From a virus: a stretch of 32,856 nucleotides of DNA. Under the pieces are notes generated by a model that was not told the origin of the DNA, did no database searches, and saw nothing but the letters and a program-made list of their open reading frames with translations. The position numbers and the translations under genes were made by a program. The stretch is taken from IMG/VR virus record IMGVR_UViG_3300010391_000197, positions 1-32,856 of that record. The stretch is one strand, 5' to 3'. Below, piece after piece: positions 14,989 through 23,815 of this stretch (positions are counted from its first letter, which is position 1; each line of letters opens with the position of its first letter).

Positions 14989-15378
14989 ATGCGGATCATC
15001 CTCTGCGACAATTGCGGTGCGCGAGTGATGGGAGCGATCGCTAAGATCGACCGCTCCGCGCTCGACTTCTGCTCGCGATCATGCGCAGAGGAGAAAGTCC
15101 GCGGCGTGCCGTCGTCCGGCGGCGGGGGCTGCATGCACGAGGACAACATGGACGGCACGGCACACGATACGCCGGTGAGCTTCCGGCATCTCGTGTGCCG
15201 GGCCTGCGGGTTCGACCGGATGGAGCCCGCAGACGACGAGAAGGCTTGCGAGCACGATTGGATCAACGTGACCCTGCACGGCGCGAACGTTGGACAGCGT
15301 GCTGAGCTGTGCATGTACTGCGGGACAGGCCGGGTGATCGTGGACGTAGCAGCCGCGCTGGAGGAAACGACGGCATGA
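14989..15378 (+). CDS. Multi-cysteine zinc-finger protein
   Basis: A 129-aa protein with several potential zinc sites: C6-C9 with C28-C32, then two similar half-sites of the form C-x-H-(E/D) followed by CxxCG, namely C48-H50 with C70-C73 and C87-H89 with C108-C111. The repeated pattern suggests three small zinc modules. ATG 14989 directly follows the coiled-coil stop. It heads a block with two methyltransferases and a glycosyltransferase, so it might guide those enzymes to substrate; that is inference. Confidence 0.75.
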   Translation: MRIILCDNCGARVMGAIAKIDRSALDFCSRSCAEEKVRGVPSSGGGGCMHEDNMDGTAHDTPVSFRHLVCRACGFDRMEPADDEKACEHDWINVTLHGANVGQRAELCMYCGTGRVIVDVAAALEETTA

Positions 15379-15833
15379 CCGGACAGGTGCGGGCCTGGGT
15401 GGAGCGCATCGTCGGCGAGTACCGGCCGTGTGCTCCCGTGCTGGAAGTCGGCGCGCACAACATCAACGGCACGGTGCGCGACCTCTTCCCGGTGCCGTAC
15501 ACGGGGCTGGATGCCGAGGCCGGCGAGGGCGTCGACGTCGTGGGCGACGTGCTGACGCACCATTTCGGCGAAGAGTTCGCCACGATCGTCTCCGTGGAGA
15601 CGCTGGAGCACGTCACGGAGCCCTGGACGGCGCTGGCGCGCATGGGCCGCTGGCTGCGGCCCGGCGGGCACCTGATCATCGCCGCGCCCTTCATGCACGG
15701 GTTGTGCAACCACCCGCGCGACTACTGGCGGTTCACGGACCAGGCGATCGCGTACCTATTCGGTTATGCCGGGTTGAAGACGCTGATAGCGGAGATGGAC
15801 GAGGCGCACGCGTACGGCGTGGCGACGAAGTAA
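15375..15833 (+). CDS. SAM-dependent methyltransferase (type 11-like)
   Basis: A 152-aa class I methyltransferase. Motif I is VLEVGAHNING at about 23-33, followed by the acidic strand YTGLDAEAGEGVDVVGD, the motif IVSVETLEHVTEPW and LRPGGHLIIAAPF. The length is short for the family and the substrate is unknown; such proteins beside CgeB-type glycosyltransferases often act on sugars or small molecules rather than DNA. The start ATG 15375 overlaps the zinc-finger stop. Confidence 0.85.
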   Translation: MTGQVRAWVERIVGEYRPCAPVLEVGAHNINGTVRDLFPVPYTGLDAEAGEGVDVVGDVLTHHFGEEFATIVSVETLEHVTEPWTALARMGRWLRPGGHLIIAAPFMHGLCNHPRDYWRFTDQAIAYLFGYAGLKTLIAEMDEAHAYGVATK

Positions 15834-16469
15834 GTGGTTACGGCGCGACGACGGAAGTGCCGGGCATGTACGCACAACCTCATCGGCATGTGCCCGCACT
15901 GGAGTAAGAAGGGGACTCGCGTGAACGGCAAACGGAACGGGCTGGTGGTCATCGAACGAAACGATGACGAATCCAAGGTCAAGATTGACATCGGCGCCGG
16001 CGCGCGGACGAATGAGGGTTACATCCGCCTCGATGTGGTGCCGTATTTTCGGCCGGAGTTGATGGCGGCGTTGACGACGCTGCCCTTCGCCCGCGATTCC
16101 GTCGATCAGATCATCTGCCATCACGTGCTGGAGCACCTCGAACGAAAAGACCTGATCCCGGCAATGAACGAGATGCACCGCGTGCTGAAGCCGGGCGGTA
16201 TTGCCGAGATCGAAGTGCCGTTGTTCCCGTTCTGGCAGGCGATCGCCGACCCGACGCACGTCAGCTTCTTCGTGTCGCAGACGTTCGACTACTTCTGCAC
16301 GAATCCCGACCTGGAGTACAAGCGCGACCAGAAGAACTACGACTTCATCGTCAAGGAACGCCGAGAGCACATGATGCTCTACGGCATCCGGCCGTGGGAG
16401 CTGGTGCGGCGGATGCGCTTCGGGACGGGCGAGATCGAACGCATCGAGATGGAGAAGGTGGACGCGTGA
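15834..16469 (+). CDS. SAM-dependent methyltransferase with N-terminal Cys motif
   Basis: A 211-aa protein. Residues 9-22 hold CRACTHNLIGMCPH, a possible zinc knuckle. The methyltransferase core follows: KIDIGAGARTNEGYIRLD (about 49-66), LPFARDSVDQIICHHVLEHL (about 83-102) and HRVLKPGGIAEIEVP. GTG 15834 directly follows the previous stop; a second GTG at 15921 with a GGGG-rich upstream region would drop the Cys motif. I prefer the longer form because the cysteines look selected. Substrate unknown. Confidence 0.83.
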   Translation: MVTARRRKCRACTHNLIGMCPHWSKKGTRVNGKRNGLVVIERNDDESKVKIDIGAGARTNEGYIRLDVVPYFRPELMAALTTLPFARDSVDQIICHHVLEHLERKDLIPAMNEMHRVLKPGGIAEIEVPLFPFWQAIADPTHVSFFVSQTFDYFCTNPDLEYKRDQKNYDFIVKERREHMMLYGIRPWELVRRMRFGTGEIERIEMEKVDA

Positions 16470-17494
16470 AGATCCTCTGCGTCTCGTCGCCGCATGCCTA
16501 CACGACGAGGGACTGCTGGCAGAAGGTGATGAAGGGACTGCGGCTGAACGGCGCCGACGTGATCCCGTTCGACCTGCTGCCCCGCTACAACATCTACGAC
16601 AATCTGATCCAGTTCGCGGAGAAGGAAGAGTTCGAACTGCCCGAGGCCTTCAAGATCAACTTGCTGGCCTGCGAGCCTGTGTTCGGCGCCGCGCACGCCT
16701 ACGACGTCGACGCCGTGATGGTCACCTCGCCGCAGTATTTCCCGATGACGATCATCGACATGCTGCGCAAAGATGGCTTCAAGACAATCGCCTACTTCAC
16801 GGAGTGTCCGTACGAAGACTCGCTGCCCGCGCCGATGCAGGCCTCGCATTTCGATTACGTGTTCGTCAACGACCGCAACTCCGTCGGGCTGTTCCAGTCC
16901 TTCGCCCGGAAGGGCTGCTGGTACCTGCCGCATTCGTACGACCCCGACGTCCACAATGCCGTGGGCGATGAGGAGCGAGACGACAACGTGCTCTTCGTCG
17001 GCACGGGCTATGCGAACCGCCGGCAGTTCTTCCAGAAGATCGATTGGACAGGGATCAAGCTCGACTTGTACGGCATGTGGTGGATGCCGTCGCGCTCGAA
17101 GCTCCGGCCGTTCGTCCGCGGCGACGTGCAGCCGAACGAGAACGTGGCGGAGATGTACCGGCACGCCGGCACGACGATCTCGATCCACCGCACGCAACGC
17201 TGGGTCGATGCGGGCCAAGTGATCGATGAGAACGAAGCGTTCAGCGCCGGCCCGCGCACATACGAGGCGGCGGCCTGCGGCATCTATCAGGTGAGCGATT
17301 ACCGCCGGGAGATTGAGGAGATCTTCGGCGAGTCGGTGCGGTTCTACTCGACACCGCGCGAGCTGGAAGCGGAACTGCGCCGGGCGGTCGAGGACCCGGC
17401 ATGGCGCAAGAACATGGCGCGCAAACAAGCGGAGGCGATCCGTCCCTACACCTGTCAGCAGCGCATGGCGACGGTCATGGAGGCCGTCGCATAG
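16466..17494 (+). CDS. CgeB-like glycosyltransferase
   Basis: A 342-aa protein resembling CgeB/GT4-type glycosyltransferases. The N-terminal Rossmann half has ILCVSSPHAYTTRDC and VDAVMVTSPQYFP; the C-terminal half has NVLFVGTGYANRRQFF (about 172-187), the donor-site-like GPRTYEAAACGIYQVSD (about 259-275) and the family ending EELEAELRRAVEDPAWR-like helix. It probably transfers a sugar from a nucleotide donor to a virion or cell-surface target. It starts in a GTGA overlap with the methyltransferase and precedes the tail-tube gene, suggesting glycosylation of a tail or capsid protein; this is inference. Confidence 0.82.
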   Translation: MKILCVSSPHAYTTRDCWQKVMKGLRLNGADVIPFDLLPRYNIYDNLIQFAEKEEFELPEAFKINLLACEPVFGAAHAYDVDAVMVTSPQYFPMTIIDMLRKDGFKTIAYFTECPYEDSLPAPMQASHFDYVFVNDRNSVGLFQSFARKGCWYLPHSYDPDVHNAVGDEERDDNVLFVGTGYANRRQFFQKIDWTGIKLDLYGMWWMPSRSKLRPFVRGDVQPNENVAEMYRHAGTTISIHRTQRWVDAGQVIDENEAFSAGPRTYEAAACGIYQVSDYRREIEEIFGESVRFYSTPRELEAELRRAVEDPAWRKNMARKQAEAIRPYTCQQRMATVMEAVA

Positions 17495-18292: not shown

Positions 18293-18667
18293 ATGCCTGA
18301 TGACGTAGTGAGAGCGCCGGTGAAGCGCGTCGAGTTGAGCAACGGGCAGTGGGCGGAGATCCGGCTGAACGTGAGCGCGGCTGATCTCTATGCGACGCAA
18401 CTGGCGCGCGTGCGTGAGCGTCGCGAGTTCGATCTGTTTCTCGACACGCTGGCGAGCTTCAAAACGAAGATCGTGCAGTGGAGCCTCGGGCCGGTGACGC
18501 AGGACCTCGTGGATGGTCTGTCCGAAGAGGATACCTTCACGCTCGCGCAGGCGATCGTCGCCGGCGACGCGAAAGAGGAAGTCCCAAACGAATCGGCCCC
18601 TTCGTCCGCTGGTACGGCGCCGAAGGGGAAGAGAGGCACCGTTACGAGCGACCCGCCGAGTGGGTGA
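18293..18667 (+). CDS. Tail assembly chaperone, unshifted product (G-like)
   Basis: This 124-aa protein coats the tape measure during tail assembly. It starts at ATG 18293 after AGAGGAG and has a typical helical body (ADLYATQLARVRERREFDLFLDTL). The tail after residue 99 is Ser/Pro/Gly-rich and disordered, as expected for the non-shifted form. A CCCAAAC slippery heptamer lies at codons 97-99, from which a minority of ribosomes should continue in the -1 frame. Confidence 0.88.
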   Translation: MPDDVVRAPVKRVELSNGQWAEIRLNVSAADLYATQLARVRERREFDLFLDTLASFKTKIVQWSLGPVTQDLVDGLSEEDTFTLAQAIVAGDAKEEVPNESAPSSAGTAPKGKRGTVTSDPPSG

Positions 18668-18858
18668 TCTCGCAAATCTGCGAGGCGTTCGGCTGCCCGC
18701 CGGACGTGGCGATGCGACAGGACGTGAGGCTGTGCATGGACATCATCGTGATGCGGCAGTACGCGGAACTCTCGTCGATGGAGGCATCAGGCGCGAAGCT
18801 CAGCGGCCATCAGATGCGTTTCCTGTTCGCGATGGAACAGATGGCGGAGGGGAGTTAA
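18293..18858 (+). CDS. Tail assembly chaperone, -1 frameshift fusion (GT-like)
   Basis: Ribosomes that slip by -1 at CCCAAAC join residues 1-99 of the short chaperone to 89 residues read from 18589 to 18858, giving about 188 aa. The downstream part begins RIGPFVRWYG, continues PAEWVISQICEAFGCPPDV and ends FAMEQMAEGS; it has no start codon or ribosome site of its own that fits. This mirrors lambda G/GT, where the extension recruits tail-tube protein. The stop TAA nests with the stop of the opposite-strand lipoprotein gene in a TTAA. Confidence 0.87.
18583..18589 (+). promoter_or_regulatory. -1 ribosomal frameshift slippery site CCCAAAC
   Basis: The heptamer is in the right phase (C CCA AAC in the zero frame), so both tRNAs can re-pair on CCC AAA. 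The -1 frame is open from here to 18858. It is placed about 80 bases before the zero-frame stop, as in other phage chaperone pairs. Confidence 0.88.
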
Positions 18859-19298
18859 GGGTTGAGGGCGTCGTACGTCAGTCTAATCACGGCATCGTTA
18901 GCGGCGGCCAATGCATCTTTTGCTTGAGTGAATTCGAGTTTAATCGTATGATCGTCCTCCTCCCGAGCGAAGGCCAAAAATCCATCGAGCATTCGATTGA
19001 ATGCAGTCACCAGATTTATCTTCGCCACCATCGCGCACTCGGGAACCTTCGCGTTCTGAACGGCTTGTCGCGATTCCTGCATATCGGCGATGACGCTGGT
19101 AAGGGCAATTCGACTAGTCGCTCCGCCGCGTTCGAATTGGTCGCTGAGATCGCTCATATAGGGCTGAAGTGCCGCGAGAGCGGCAGTTGCGTCTGCGCCA
19201 CCACAGTGCCCCGGAGATGGAGTAGGTCGCCCGCTAGACGATCCGTCGCAAGCAGATGCGAAGATCGCGGCGACTATGGCGAGAAGAATGCATTTCAC
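18855..19298 (-). CDS. Small lipoprotein on the opposite strand (moron candidate)
   Basis: A 147-aa protein is encoded against the direction of every other gene. From GTG 19298 it begins with a lipoprotein signal (MKCILLAIVAAIFASAC), with Cys17 as the likely lipidated residue after a FASA lipobox. A Ser/Gly/Pro linker follows, then a helical domain (DATAALAALQPYMSDL, TAFNRMLDGFLAFAREE, TQAKDALAAANDAVIR) with a second Cys pair near C27 and C84. A longer TTG start at 19334 would place the signal internally. DNA here is less GC-rich than the flanks. By analogy with phage lipoprotein morons it may block superinfection or alter the host envelope; that is inference. Confidence 0.75.
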   Translation of the reverse strand: MKCILLAIVAAIFASACDGSSSGRPTPSPGHCGGADATAALAALQPYMSDLSDQFERGGATSRIALTSVIADMQESRQAVQNAKVPECAMVAKINLVTAFNRMLDGFLAFAREEDDHTIKLEFTQAKDALAAANDAVIRLTYDALNP

Positions 19299-19352
19299 AG
19301 CATCGAGCGTACGCCTGTCCGTTCGGGAATGCAACAGGGGGCGTCAAGCTAA

Positions 19353-19931
19353 ATGGCCACCCTGGCGAATCTGAACGTCAAGACGGGGCCGAAGCCGAAG
19401 GGCCTTGAAGCCCGATTTTGGCCCAAAGTGCGACGGACGATGGATCCGGACGCTTGCTGGGAATGGCAAGGATATCGGAATCCACGAGGCTATGGGACGA
19501 TCGGCGCTGGTAGCCGCGATGAGTCGATGTTGCTCGCGCACCGTGTTGCTTATGAAATAGCTAACGGAGCGATCCCGCTCGATAAGCCCCACATCTGTCA
19601 TCACTGCGATAATCCGCCGTGCTGTAACCCGCGCCATCTTTTCGCTGGTACTCGGTCGGACAACATGCGTGATTGCGTTTCAAAGCGGAGGCACGTTGGC
19701 GCCGTGTGCCCCGAACGCTTAGCGCGGGGCGACCGCAATGGAAGCCGAAGACATCCCGAGAAGCGTTTACGCGGAGAACAGCACCCGATGTCGCGACTCT
19801 GCGAGGCTGATGTCTTAGCGATTCGCTCGCGCTCTGGGCAATCGGTTTCTGCGCTCGCACGCGAGTTCGATGTGGGACGTACGACCGTACAGCGAGTCCT
19901 TGATCGCGACACTTGGAGACACGTGCCATAA
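19353..19931 (+). CDS. HNH homing-type endonuclease with C-terminal HTH
   Basis: A 192-aa endonuclease of the HNH_3 type: AHRVAYEIANGAIP at 62-75, the zinc/catalytic block HICHHCDNPPCCNPRHLF at 80-97 and GTRSDNMRDC, followed by a helix-turn-helix (VSALAREFDVGRTTVQRVLD, about 165-184) that likely helps site binding. The first ten residues (MATLANLNVK) are not typical of the family; they match the start of the tape-measure protein that follows (TLANLNV). The gene therefore seems to have inserted just after the tape-measure start and taken over its initiation region. Lower GC than its neighbours supports transfer. Confidence 0.88.
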   Translation: MATLANLNVKTGPKPKGLEARFWPKVRRTMDPDACWEWQGYRNPRGYGTIGAGSRDESMLLAHRVAYEIANGAIPLDKPHICHHCDNPPCCNPRHLFAGTRSDNMRDCVSKRRHVGAVCPERLARGDRNGSRRHPEKRLRGEQHPMSRLCEADVLAIRSRSGQSVSALAREFDVGRTTVQRVLDRDTWRHVP

Positions 19932-22900
19932 CTACGTTAGCCAACCTCAATGTCCGCATAACCGGAGACACTCAGCAGCTCGTCTCTGCCCTGAGCGTGG
20001 CCGAGAAGCGCGTGACGGCCTTCGGGGCGGTCAGCGCTGGCATCAGCCGTCAGCAGGCTTCAGGCATCAGCGCGCTCGGGCGCGGCTTCGCCTACGCGGC
20101 CGGGCAGTCCGGCATCCTCACCTCCGAGATGTCGATCCTCACCACGGCCTCCCAGACGGTGGGCCTCGCGGCGGCGGCCGCCGCTGTGGGCTTCGGAGCC
20201 ATTGCGGGCGGCATCGGTGCGTCGATCAAGACGGCGATCGACTTCGAGTCGAGCTTCGCGGGCATCCGCAAGACCGTAGATGGCACCGAGGCGGACTTCA
20301 AGACGCTGGAAGCGGCGAACCGCAGCATGGCGAAGTCGCTGCCGATCAGCGTCAACGAGATCAACCGCATTGGCGAGGCGGCGGGACAGCTCGGCATCAG
20401 TGGCATCGATAACATCACGAAGTTCGAGCGCACGATCGCCGACATCGCGAACACGACGAACCTCACGGCTGACGAAGCGGCGACGGCGTTCGCGCAGATC
20501 GCGAACGTCATGCAGTTGCCGATCTCGCAGATCGACCGTCTCGGCGCGGCTGTCGTCGATCTCGGTAACAAGGGCGCATCGACCGAGAAAGGCATCATCG
20601 ACTTCTCGCAGCGCATCGCGGGTGCCGGCAAGATCGCTGGGCTAACAGTCGCGCAGATCGCCGGCATCAGCTCGGCGTTCGCGTCCGTCGGCATCGAAGC
20701 AGAGGCAGGCGGTACGGCGATCCAGAAAGTGCTGATCGAACTGACAAAGTCCGTAGCGGAGGGCGGCGACAAGCTGGCCATCTTCGCGAAGACCGCGGGG
20801 CTGACGATCGCGCAGTTCTGCGACCTCGCAAAGAGCAACCCGGCGGAGGCGTTCACACGCTTTGTCGAAGGGCTGGGCAAGGCGGGCGATCAGGCTTTCA
20901 AGATTCTCGAAGGCCTGGGGCTCGAAGACCAGCGGCTGATCCGTTCGTTCCTCGCGACGGCGCAAGCGGGAGATCTGTTGCGGCGCTCGATCGAGACGGG
21001 GACGACGGCGTTCGCACAGAACACCGCGCTCGCGACAGAGGCGGAGAAACGGTACGCAACCGTCGGCTCGCGGCTTACGATCATGAAAAACAACTTCATA
21101 GATCTGGGCATCAGCATCGGCGATACGTTCCTGCCACCGCTCGCGAAGTCATCATCTGCGCTCGTCGCCTTTACCGAGGCGACGAGACCGATGGCGCCGG
21201 CACTGAAGCTCGCGGCAGAGGCAGCGGTCCTGTTCGGCCTTGGTATAGCGGCAATCAAGCTCACTGGCTTCATCAACAACCTGACACTGGCACGCGCAGC
21301 AACGCTTGGTCTCTCCGGCACGCTCCATTCAACCGCAGTTGGGGTGGGTCTTCTAGCAGTTGGATTTGTCGCTCTGGATCTCGCTGCGCAAAAGTTCCGT
21401 GGCCAATCCCTCATCGAATTGTTCACTACGACGGACGAAAAGGCACGAGGCGCGGCCAAGGCAGTGAAGGAATTCGCGGCCGCGCAGGAGATCGTCGCGA
21501 AATCCAATGTCGCTGGTTCGGCGGCATTTCAGACTTCCAGCGTGAGCGCATTCGTCGTTGAACTGACGCATGCAAATGAACAACTAGACAAGTTCAACTT
21601 TAGGCTTAAGCACCCGCCATCCTTTGGTGGCCTCGACACCGCAAAGGACGTACTCTCCGGCTCCACGTTTGGATTGTTCGCGGGGCCTACCATCAAGGCG
21701 AGGGAAGCCGCGGCTCAGTTCAGGGGTGAGATCGACGCGCTGATCAAACAACTGCCGGTATTTGCTGCCGCGCAGAAAGATCCGATCGCAGCGTTGGAGG
21801 AACTGCGACAAAGCCTCGCGAAGCAACCCGACGTGCTCGCCCGCATCGAGCCCGCCTTACAGAAGCTCGTCAATCAGTACAGCGATGCCGCATTGGCCGC
21901 GGAGGATGCCGGCACGAAGTCGTTCCGGGCGGCGATGCAAGCAGGCAGTGGTGAGATCGGCTGGCGCCTTCTCGCTTCTGGCGCGGATGCCGCTACCACG
22001 GCGCAGAGTCAAGCCGCGGAGTCGGCCGACGCATCCCGGAAGGCGATCGCGGACTTTGGCAAAGAGCTGAACCAAACGGCATCGCTGTCGAGCCGACTGA
22101 ATCCGTTGACTGAAGCGCTGAAGGCGCAAGTGCTGATCCTCGAGCAGCAGCGGCGCGGCATGGAGGCATCGGGGCAGAGCACGGCCGGACTCGACGCGCA
22201 GATCGCCTCGCTGCGCAACCAACTTGACCAGAGCAATTCGTCTGCGGAGATCGCCGACGCGAAGATCCGCGCGTTCGGCGCCGCGGCCTTCGACGCGATG
22301 TCGCAGACGGCCGGCGGTGCGGATCGCGCGAAAGAAGGCATCGCGGCGCTCGGCAATTCCTTGCAGGGGTTACCGCGCGAACAGCAGATCGAGATCATCA
22401 CCAAGCTACCGCTCAACGACCTGAACCGGATGCTCGTCATCCTGCGGCTGCTGGCGCAAGGCGTGACGATCCCGATCGCCGTCGCCATCGAGGGGCGCGC
22501 GAACGAACTGCTGAAGGACAAGCCCTCATTCCTGCGCATCCGTCAGTTGGAGTCACTCTCGGAGAAGTCCGGTTTCGACTTGAACGCTCCGCCCGTGGAG
22601 GATGCTGCAGGCAAGCGGTTCCGCGAAGAGATCGATGCCATCAACGCATCGCTTACGGCCGGCGCCGACACTGCTGACAACTTCGCGAAATCGACGGGCG
22701 GCGCATCGAAAGCCGAACAGGAAAGCGAAGCGGGCCTCATCGGCCTGAGTGCGGCGTTCGGAGAGTTCCAACGCGCCACAGGCGGGACGGAGGCGCAGTT
22801 CGCCGCGCTGATCGCGCAGTCGGAAGAAGAGGCATCGCTACAGAAGCAGATCACGGATGCGACGTTCGCGCACAATGTCGAGTTGGCGAAAGCGGCGAAC

Positions 22901-23815
22901 TCCACCGAGAACAACCGGCTCGCGCTGCTCAAGCTCGGGCTGGAGATGGTGAAGGCGGGCGGCTCCTACTCCGACCTGATGCGGGTGATCCGCGAGAAGA
23001 CGATCGAGGGTTTGCGTGGGGCCGTCGATGCGCTGCGCTCCGCATTCGGCGGCCTCTTCGGCCGGCCGACAAAGGAACAAGCTGACCTTAACGCGCGCAT
23101 CGCCGAGCTGGAGTTCGAGCGCGCGAAGCGGCGCGCGGCAGGTGCCGACGACGAAGAGCTGAAGGCGCTCGACGATCACATCGATGCCTTGCGTCGTCAA
23201 CGCGACGTGCTGGACAAGCATGCCGACCTGCTGAAGGCACAGAACGACCAAGCCGACCAGACCCTGCTGACGGAGAATCAGCGCGATTTCGCCGCGAAGC
23301 TCTACACGATCGCGCTCGGCGATCAGACGGGCGCGCTGAAGAGTCTCACCGACCAGGCGGGGCTTGAGGCGCTCGCACGACAGCACCTCATCGACTCGAT
23401 GCTGTCGGCGGCGGACGCGAACAACGCCCAGGCGGGGATCTCGCCACAGCAATCCAATCTCGACTTCTTCAACTCCCTGCCCGACGCCGACCGGCTGGCG
23501 CTGGCGAAGCTCCTGGAAGCGTTGGCGAACCAGGGCAAACTCGCGGGCGGCACGGATTACTGGCGCGGCGGCCCGGCGCTCGTCGGCGAGAAGGGGCCGG
23601 AGCTGCTGAACCTGCCGCGCGGCTCACGCGTGACGCCGCTTGGTGAAAGCGGCATCGACGCCTACATGCCGCGCAACACGAAGATCATGTCCGCTGCGTC
23701 CGGCGCGCCGACGGTGACGGAGATCCACCACCGGACGGTCAACAACTACATCGACAAGATGATCCTTGAAGGCGACGCGGCGGCGGGGCTGGCCGCGCTT
23801 GGGGTGAGCATCTGA
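19913..23815 (+). CDS. Tape measure protein
   Basis: At 1300 aa this is the longest product; it sets tail length and enters the host on infection. Near the N-terminus it has the TP901-type core (FESSFAGIRKTVDGTEADF, EAAGQLGISGIDNI, DEAATAFAQIANVMQL), then hydrophobic segments (about 60-110 and 425-490), long Ala/Gln/Glu-rich helices, and the frequent C-terminal motif YWRGGPALVGEKGPELLNLP. The start is uncertain: TTG 19913 lies inside the HNH gene, whereas an AUA at 19928 with GGAG about 9 bases upstream aligns exactly with the M of the HNH-captured copy. A region near 21090-21770 is less GC-rich, suggesting mosaic exchange. Confidence 0.95.
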   Translation: METRAITTLANLNVRITGDTQQLVSALSVAEKRVTAFGAVSAGISRQQASGISALGRGFAYAAGQSGILTSEMSILTTASQTVGLAAAAAAVGFGAIAGGIGASIKTAIDFESSFAGIRKTVDGTEADFKTLEAANRSMAKSLPISVNEINRIGEAAGQLGISGIDNITKFERTIADIANTTNLTADEAATAFAQIANVMQLPISQIDRLGAAVVDLGNKGASTEKGIIDFSQRIAGAGKIAGLTVAQIAGISSAFASVGIEAEAGGTAIQKVLIELTKSVAEGGDKLAIFAKTAGLTIAQFCDLAKSNPAEAFTRFVEGLGKAGDQAFKILEGLGLEDQRLIRSFLATAQAGDLLRRSIETGTTAFAQNTALATEAEKRYATVGSRLTIMKNNFIDLGISIGDTFLPPLAKSSSALVAFTEATRPMAPALKLAAEAAVLFGLGIAAIKLTGFINNLTLARAATLGLSGTLHSTAVGVGLLAVGFVALDLAAQKFRGQSLIELFTTTDEKARGAAKAVKEFAAAQEIVAKSNVAGSAAFQTSSVSAFVVELTHANEQLDKFNFRLKHPPSFGGLDTAKDVLSGSTFGLFAGPTIKAREAAAQFRGEIDALIKQLPVFAAAQKDPIAALEELRQSLAKQPDVLARIEPALQKLVNQYSDAALAAEDAGTKSFRAAMQAGSGEIGWRLLASGADAATTAQSQAAESADASRKAIADFGKELNQTASLSSRLNPLTEALKAQVLILEQQRRGMEASGQSTAGLDAQIASLRNQLDQSNSSAEIADAKIRAFGAAAFDAMSQTAGGADRAKEGIAALGNSLQGLPREQQIEIITKLPLNDLNRMLVILRLLAQGVTIPIAVAIEGRANELLKDKPSFLRIRQLESLSEKSGFDLNAPPVEDAAGKRFREEIDAINASLTAGADTADNFAKSTGGASKAEQESEAGLIGLSAAFGEFQRATGGTEAQFAALIAQSEEEASLQKQITDATFAHNVELAKAANSTENNRLALLKLGLEMVKAGGSYSDLMRVIREKTIEGLRGAVDALRSAFGGLFGRPTKEQADLNARIAELEFERAKRRAAGADDEELKALDDHIDALRRQRDVLDKHADLLKAQNDQADQTLLTENQRDFAAKLYTIALGDQTGALKSLTDQAGLEALARQHLIDSMLSAADANNAQAGISPQQSNLDFFNSLPDADRLALAKLLEALANQGKLAGGTDYWRGGPALVGEKGPELLNLPRGSRVTPLGESGIDAYMPRNTKIMSAASGAPTVTEIHHRTVNNYIDKMILEGDAAAGLAALGVSI

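Follow-up and report, generated by a model that had tools for sequence, protein, structure and literature searches.

How a nuclease gene and the essential structural gene that follows it come to begin with almost the same peptide, spelled with different codons, is the question raised by an HNH endonuclease ORF at the start of the tape-measure protein (TMP) gene of a viral genome. The window, meaning the whole stretch of DNA analysed, is a virus record of 32,856 bp with the gene order of a typical tailed phage (terminase, portal, protease, capsid, head-tail genes, major tail protein, chaperone-like pair, tape measure and tail genes). The answer considered probable here is that a free-standing HNH homing endonuclease inserted inside the TMP start, keeps the displaced start as its own, and supplies the start of a divergent donor's gene in its place.

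Organization of the locus

The HNH ORF (19353-19931) begins MATLANLNVK, reads MATLANLNVKTGPKPKGLEARFWPKV... / MATLANLNVKTGPKPKG..., and ends with the stop codon TAA at 19929-19931. Its HNH_3 domain is complete (model positions 2-46 of 46; E 1.3e-12; 47.6 bits, the cut-off being 24.8), and residues 158-185 match HTH_7 at 23.7 bits with a cut-off of 23.8, several other helix-turn-helix families also being below cut-off. The TMP frame is open from 19904 to 23815, with no stop, and lacks an ATG; the candidate starts are ATA at 19928, from which it reads ITTLANLNVRITGDTQQ... / ITTLANLNVRITGD..., i.e. (ATA)TTLANLNVR, or TTG at 19913. The relevant features are as follows.

19353..19382, + strand: putative captured tape-measure start, HNH codons 1-10 (ATGGCCACCCTGGCGAATCTGAACGTCAAG, MATLANLNVK); from codon usage, alignments of HNH relatives and TMP starts elsewhere
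19383..19931, + strand: HNH endonuclease gene body; from Pfam HNH_3, PHROG HNH endonuclease families and codon usage
19533..19670, + strand: HNH_3 nuclease domain, residues 61-106; from Pfam
19824..19901, + strand: putative C-terminal helix-turn-helix, residues 158-183, presumed DNA-recognition part; from sub-cut-off HTH matches
19913..19915, + strand: TTG, alternative in-frame TMP start, which would add METRA; frame opens at 19904
19915..19918, + strand: GGAG, 9 nt upstream of the ATA start and possibly its ribosome-binding site; from sequence
19928..19930, + strand: ATA, probable TMP start codon, overlapping the HNH stop as ATAA; from sequence and the overlaps of relatives
19928..19987, + strand: apparently foreign copy of the TMP 5′ end, about 20 codons; from rare codons, CAI and likelihood scan
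19988..23815, + strand: native TMP body; from PhageMin_Tail (E 5.3e-18), PHROG tape-measure families and native codons from codon 21

An ATGA overlap of the HNH stop with the start of the next gene is present at five other loci (L007, L113, L114, L146 and L366). Given that relatives show ATGA, a single G>A change would convert ATG/TGA into the ATA/TAA of the window. As an observation in its own right, such stop/start overlaps recur at L007, L018, L113 and L114, where the 3′ end of the HNH gene provides the start codon of the next gene.

Several neighbouring features merit mention. On the minus strand, an ORF for 159 amino acids (18855-19334) separates the chaperone-like genes from the HNH gene; it has a lipoprotein-like N-terminus (LLAIVAAIFASACDGSS), GC below that of its neighbours, and no match in Pfam or PHROG, and is possibly a second insertion at the same boundary. 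The two plus-strand ORFs at 18293-18858, 5′ of the tape measure, overlap in different frames and, though without a family match, look from their arrangement like the usual frameshift-made tail-assembly chaperone pair. Amid the head-tail genes, at 15309-17494 (plus strand), are methyltransferase-like and glycosyltransferase-like ORFs that appear cargo-like.

HNH genes are frequently intron-borne, and a self-splicing intron or an intein with an internal HNH gene, the second copy of the start being exon sequence, is the least probable of the alternatives considered. A search of both strands of 18800-20600 at E up to 1 found no Rfam family, making an intron unlikely, and an intron would not duplicate exon codons; the junction, with its stop codon and change of frame, excludes an intein. 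The first-pass annotation, which had proposed an arrangement with neither intron nor intein, thus holds on this point, with no Rfam match and with an HNH gene that has its own stop codon and a change of frame after it.

Whose N-terminus?

The seven residues TLANLNV, common to both proteins, are encoded by ACC CTG GCG AAT CTG AAC GTC in the HNH gene and by ACG TTA GCC AAC CTC AAT GTC in the TMP gene, so that six of the seven codons differ, every change being silent (57% nucleotide identity over ten codons). This part of the earlier description proved exact on re-reading of the sequence; the differently spelled stretch of TMP extends beyond the seven common codons to about 20. Just ten residues are common, and the N-terminal tail of the HNH protein might merely resemble a TMP start by chance or convergence. 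However, among 64,770 mismatched pairs (the head of one HNH protein against sequence at the 3′ end of another HNH gene) a 7-residue exact match was found once and an 8-residue match never. When the comparison was anchored on the two start codons, the window reached a score of 35; across 202 loci, chance predicts 0.03 loci scoring at least 25 and 0.00 (rounded) scoring at least 30.

In most HNH relatives, whether from phages or viral contigs, alignment to the window protein begins no earlier than about residue 13-18; it begins at residue 4-10 in a few, which lack the motif, and the relatives' own N-termini are unrelated. The MATLANLNVK start was sought in HNH relatives elsewhere and none has it, which also speaks against chance. 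A degenerate-DNA search of viral contigs for M-x-T-x-A-N-L-N-V yielded seven loci, none a close relative of the window, of which six mark the beginnings of proteins whose N-termini are TMP-like, the seventh being a fibre-like protein. In genome_contigs all matches to the motif are DUF736-like proteins of 106 amino acids. One set of loci (L095-L108), from Sphingopyxis and relatives, encodes a 106-aa protein, not a TMP, that opens MPTIANLNVK; the motif is consequently no proof of a tape measure by itself, and this protein lends chance resemblance some colour. Since the HNH relatives lack MATxANLNV and the motif opens the TMPs of other phages, the first ten residues of the window HNH protein are tape-measure sequence. 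Capture of a TMP start as the HNH N-terminus, as proposed, is thereby supported, the codons of the segment also being native.

Codon discontinuities

With the phage's own codon usage as CAI reference, the captured start (HNH codons 2-10) is phage-like (CAI 0.70-0.71, GC3 0.89) and the HNH body is not (CAI 0.42, GC3 0.57). TMP codons 2-20 have a CAI of 0.33, the lowest among 21 gene starts, and codons 21-60 one of 0.66, native usage being back near codon 21. Rare codons within 19928..19987 are ATA, ACT, TTA, ATA, GGA, ACT and TCT, and a likelihood scan along TMP that weighs HNH-like against native usage has its maximum at codon 20. The stretches compared are short, as is the foreign tract, and the start of the major tail protein gene is nearly as low at 0.36. 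On the simplest reading of these codon statistics, a native start would be fused to a foreign HNH gene, to be followed by a foreign TMP start of about 20 codons and then by the native TMP body. The idea that a copy was brought in to rebuild the TMP N-terminus gains from this, as the present start is foreign by its codons and usage turns abruptly native near codon 21.

A different source of rare, AT-rich codons at the TMP start would be selection at translation starts, in which case nothing there is foreign and only the N-terminal capture is real. Low values over codons 2-20 in several other genes of the window, with the major tail protein gene and g28916 (0.42) the next lowest after TMP, are in keeping with such selection. 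Yet of the 21 starts TMP codons 2-20 are the lowest, although the captured start, from that very gene, stands at 0.70, and the contrast between captured and downstream copies goes in one direction in all five cases presented below. Selection of this kind is judged quite unlikely as the explanation.

Recurrence in unrelated genes

HNH ORFs of viral contigs, 255 besides that of the window, were scanned for N-termini that resemble the beginning of the gene that follows, in a discovery set of 133 ORFs and a second, disjoint set of 122 obtained with a different HNH motif; the 99.9% values of the null were 42 and 39 respectively. Four more captures were found, three (L161, L216 and L146) in the discovery set and one (L366) in the second. 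In L161 (score 55) the HNH protein has TKRVTVPEAEKVLG where the ThyX start has MAETKRLTVPAAEEVLG; in L216 (score 51) VRFHVPALP is matched by VRFHIPSLP of a glycosyltransferase-like gene; in L146 (score 46) ATGHKLLDVVLE is matched by MSTGHRLLDAVLD of a gene of no known kind; and in L366 (score 65, no null pair being that high) MMSELTVVKKQGLVAKMADKFGVD is matched by MNTEVMKKPSLVQKMADRFGVDADK of a Bet recombinase, whose start overlaps the HNH stop as ATGA. ThyX and the glycosyltransferase were named by reading their sequences, and blastn matches to annotated genes also support the names ThyX and Bet. In Pseudomonas phage PS-1, where Bet has no HNH, that protein opens with MSNVATIKPSSLSARMAERFGVD; both L366 copies match it and are therefore genuine Bet starts. 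Three further candidates (L341, L316 and L333), capture-like at first, were dismissed as chance after reading.

With four further cases in unrelated genes, one of them from the replication sample, chance resemblance is strongly disfavoured and retains a very small probability. GC3 is higher in the captured than in the downstream copy in all five cases (0.90/0.60, 0.79/0.71, 1.00/0.44, 0.83/0.75 and 0.62/0.44), as expected from a recipient that retains its start and a donor that provides the copy. The downstream copies of L161, L216 and L146 have rare codons for about 18-33 codons and then native usage. In the five cases the two copies have 57-70% DNA identity and are 450-590 nt apart, the HNH gene being the sole thing that separates them and its fusion being in frame in all five unrelated genes.

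These dimensions bear on two more conventional origins. A tandem duplication of the TMP start within the window phage, with an HNH gene entering between the copies and drift thereafter, would account for both copies specifying the same peptide; but the level of nucleotide identity, near-saturated silent sites and the foreign codons of the second copy do not fit a recent local duplication, and one would be needed in five phages, which makes this origin very improbable. Less remote, though still unlikely, is that ordinary recombination joined two phages beside an existing HNH gene that was passive, the duplicated start being a by-product. HNH genes are found at boundaries of genetic exchange according to PMC10448857, and the codon mismatch agrees with simple divergence. 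Against such recombination, only an HNH gene lies between the copies, it is fused in frame each time in five unrelated genes, and the nearest HNH relatives have a common target site.

The latter concerns three HNH genes, L004 (561), L275 (8460, reverse complement) and L340 (4942), which in three different phages lie exactly where a member of a single head-tail gene family (..LALLNQAG..YPWQAL..) begins. The best two relatives of L340 among the 255 HNHs are L275 and L004, and an apparent lineage-specific target is suggested by this sequence relationship. The L275 HNH protein opens MSLLS, the first five residues of the next gene, with all codons different; the match alone has p = 0.008 and, taken together with the target common to its relatives, makes L275 probably a short capture, a fifth further case.

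On a tree of 260 HNH domains, which is poorly resolved, the five captures need five changes, and the mutual distances of the five capturing HNHs are similar to those of random pairs. Repeated origin of start capture, at distant points of that poorly resolved tree, is suggested by these placements. Because the architecture recurs with four other targets and among distantly related HNHs, it is no accident of the window contig. All five cases are viral contigs, at least four from metagenomes, and their being unrelated argues against an assembly artefact. With about 250 of the 255 surveyed HNHs having no detectable capture, it is not the rule of the family; as short captures would be missed by the survey, four in 255 is a lower bound. 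The C-terminal mirror arrangement was also looked for, with no convincing case. Bacterial genomes had a relative of the window HNH in 6 of 398 and a capture in none, and inspection of 13 HNH neighbourhoods in isolate phages revealed no capture.

A proposed mechanism

Under insertion of a free-standing homing endonuclease inside the TMP start, the start region of the recipient (promoter, ribosome site, ATG and first 9-10 codons) would have become fused in frame as the nuclease N-terminus. The 3′ end of the HNH gene would overlap the new start codon, to be followed by about 20 codons from the homologous TMP start of a divergent donor phage, joined near codon 20 to the recipient's own gene so that TMP is rebuilt with a foreign start. 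Translation of TMP, we infer, would be coupled to the end of the HNH gene via the ATAA overlap. It counts against this reading that TMP would depend on ATA or TTG, both weak start codons. The nuclease would presumably cut uninterrupted alleles near codons 10-20, and the break would be repaired from an HNH-bearing genome, homology being supplied on the left by the captured start and on the right by the downstream gene. A left crossover in or before the captured start would leave the recipient's own codons on the HNH gene, and a right crossover 15-33 codons into the gene would make the first codons of the restored gene those of the donor. The occupied allele may then escape recognition, the copy brought in having diverged.

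The earlier suggestion that the copy was recoded so as to destroy the nuclease target is not supported. Under independent codon choice the probability of at most one identical codon in seven is 0.08-0.28; the codon mismatch is expected from saturation between divergent homologues, and donor divergence suffices with no need for selection.

HNH-free relatives were sought by several routes. The window TMP protein has two distant matches in viral_contigs and none in genome_contigs, with no HNH-free close relative. Relatives of the terminase were searched for a TMP, the nearest terminase being 66% identical and its TMP unrelated at the start. Neither use of the downstream tail gene and chaperone as queries nor megablast with 25 kb of the window gave, respectively, anything useful or any relative. 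For L161, L216, L146 and L366, phage blastn and megablast gave only distant relatives and no HNH-free close one, and a flank-against-flank search among the fetched loci gave no empty site for any captured case. Among all of these, no HNH-free relative was close enough to compare for the recoded codons, and the lack of an empty site in these searches for any of the five phages weighs against the proposed mechanism.

Relationship to known systems

The closest parallel is in fungal mitochondria. Beaudet et al. 2013 (PMC3630166) describe gene hybrids due to mobile ORFs in atp6, atp9, cox2 and nad3 of Glomus, and cite an earlier Allomyces atp6 case. There, an endonuclease ORF brings a divergent, largely synonymous copy of the 3′ end that it displaces, and the hybrids are expressed; the Glomus atp6 copies have 63.5% nucleotide and 91% amino acid identity (PMC3630166). 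Likewise in the window and the four further cases, an endonuclease ORF separates a native gene end that was displaced from a divergent copy of it. However, the fungal hybrids (PMC3630166) involve C-terminal duplications, LAGLIDADG or GIY-YIG enzymes and mitochondria, whereas the window involves the 5′ end, an HNH enzyme and a phage, and its displaced piece, unlike theirs, becomes the nuclease's own N-terminus and start. The phage cases are a 5′ mirror of the fungal hybrids, working alike without being members of that class, as it is the N-terminal end that is replaced.

There are similarities also to the free-standing mob and seg endonucleases of phage T4 (PMC2988022), in the presence of an HNH gene in a phage operon with start/stop overlap and translation that is presumably coupled. 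T4-type free-standing endonucleases are known to co-convert flanks; they are located between genes or split a host gene (Aeh1 mobE, T4 mobA), and a captured start with a replacement copy is not described for them in the passages of PMC2988022 consulted. The methylase insertion of the ShiLan domain resembles the window (PMC11855218) in having an HNH gene inside a coding gene with the host product kept and no intron or intein. The difference is that in ShiLan the host gene is read through the insert, in another frame (PMC11855218), whereas in the window it restarts from a second copy of the start. No description of start capture in phages was found in the parts of the open-licence literature searched.

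Implications

Start capture appears to be a general route by which such nucleases enter essential genes without intron or intein. That it amounts to a distinct phage HNH strategy, of repeated origin, is favoured with some reserve: the target would be inside a start, the start of the victim would serve as both N-terminus and left arm, and a divergent start would be the payload that restores and immunizes, with essential genes occupied and N-termini swapped. If true, it would explain how selfish nucleases occupy essential phage genes (tape measure, ThyX and Bet) with neither intron nor intein, and would offer a simple search signature, namely a nuclease N-terminus matching the start of the next gene. 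Many annotations of an HNH domain plus an odd N-terminus would become interpretable, and automatic annotation may be misplacing the starts of interrupted genes. The N-termini of structural and replication proteins may swap between phages as passengers of nucleases.
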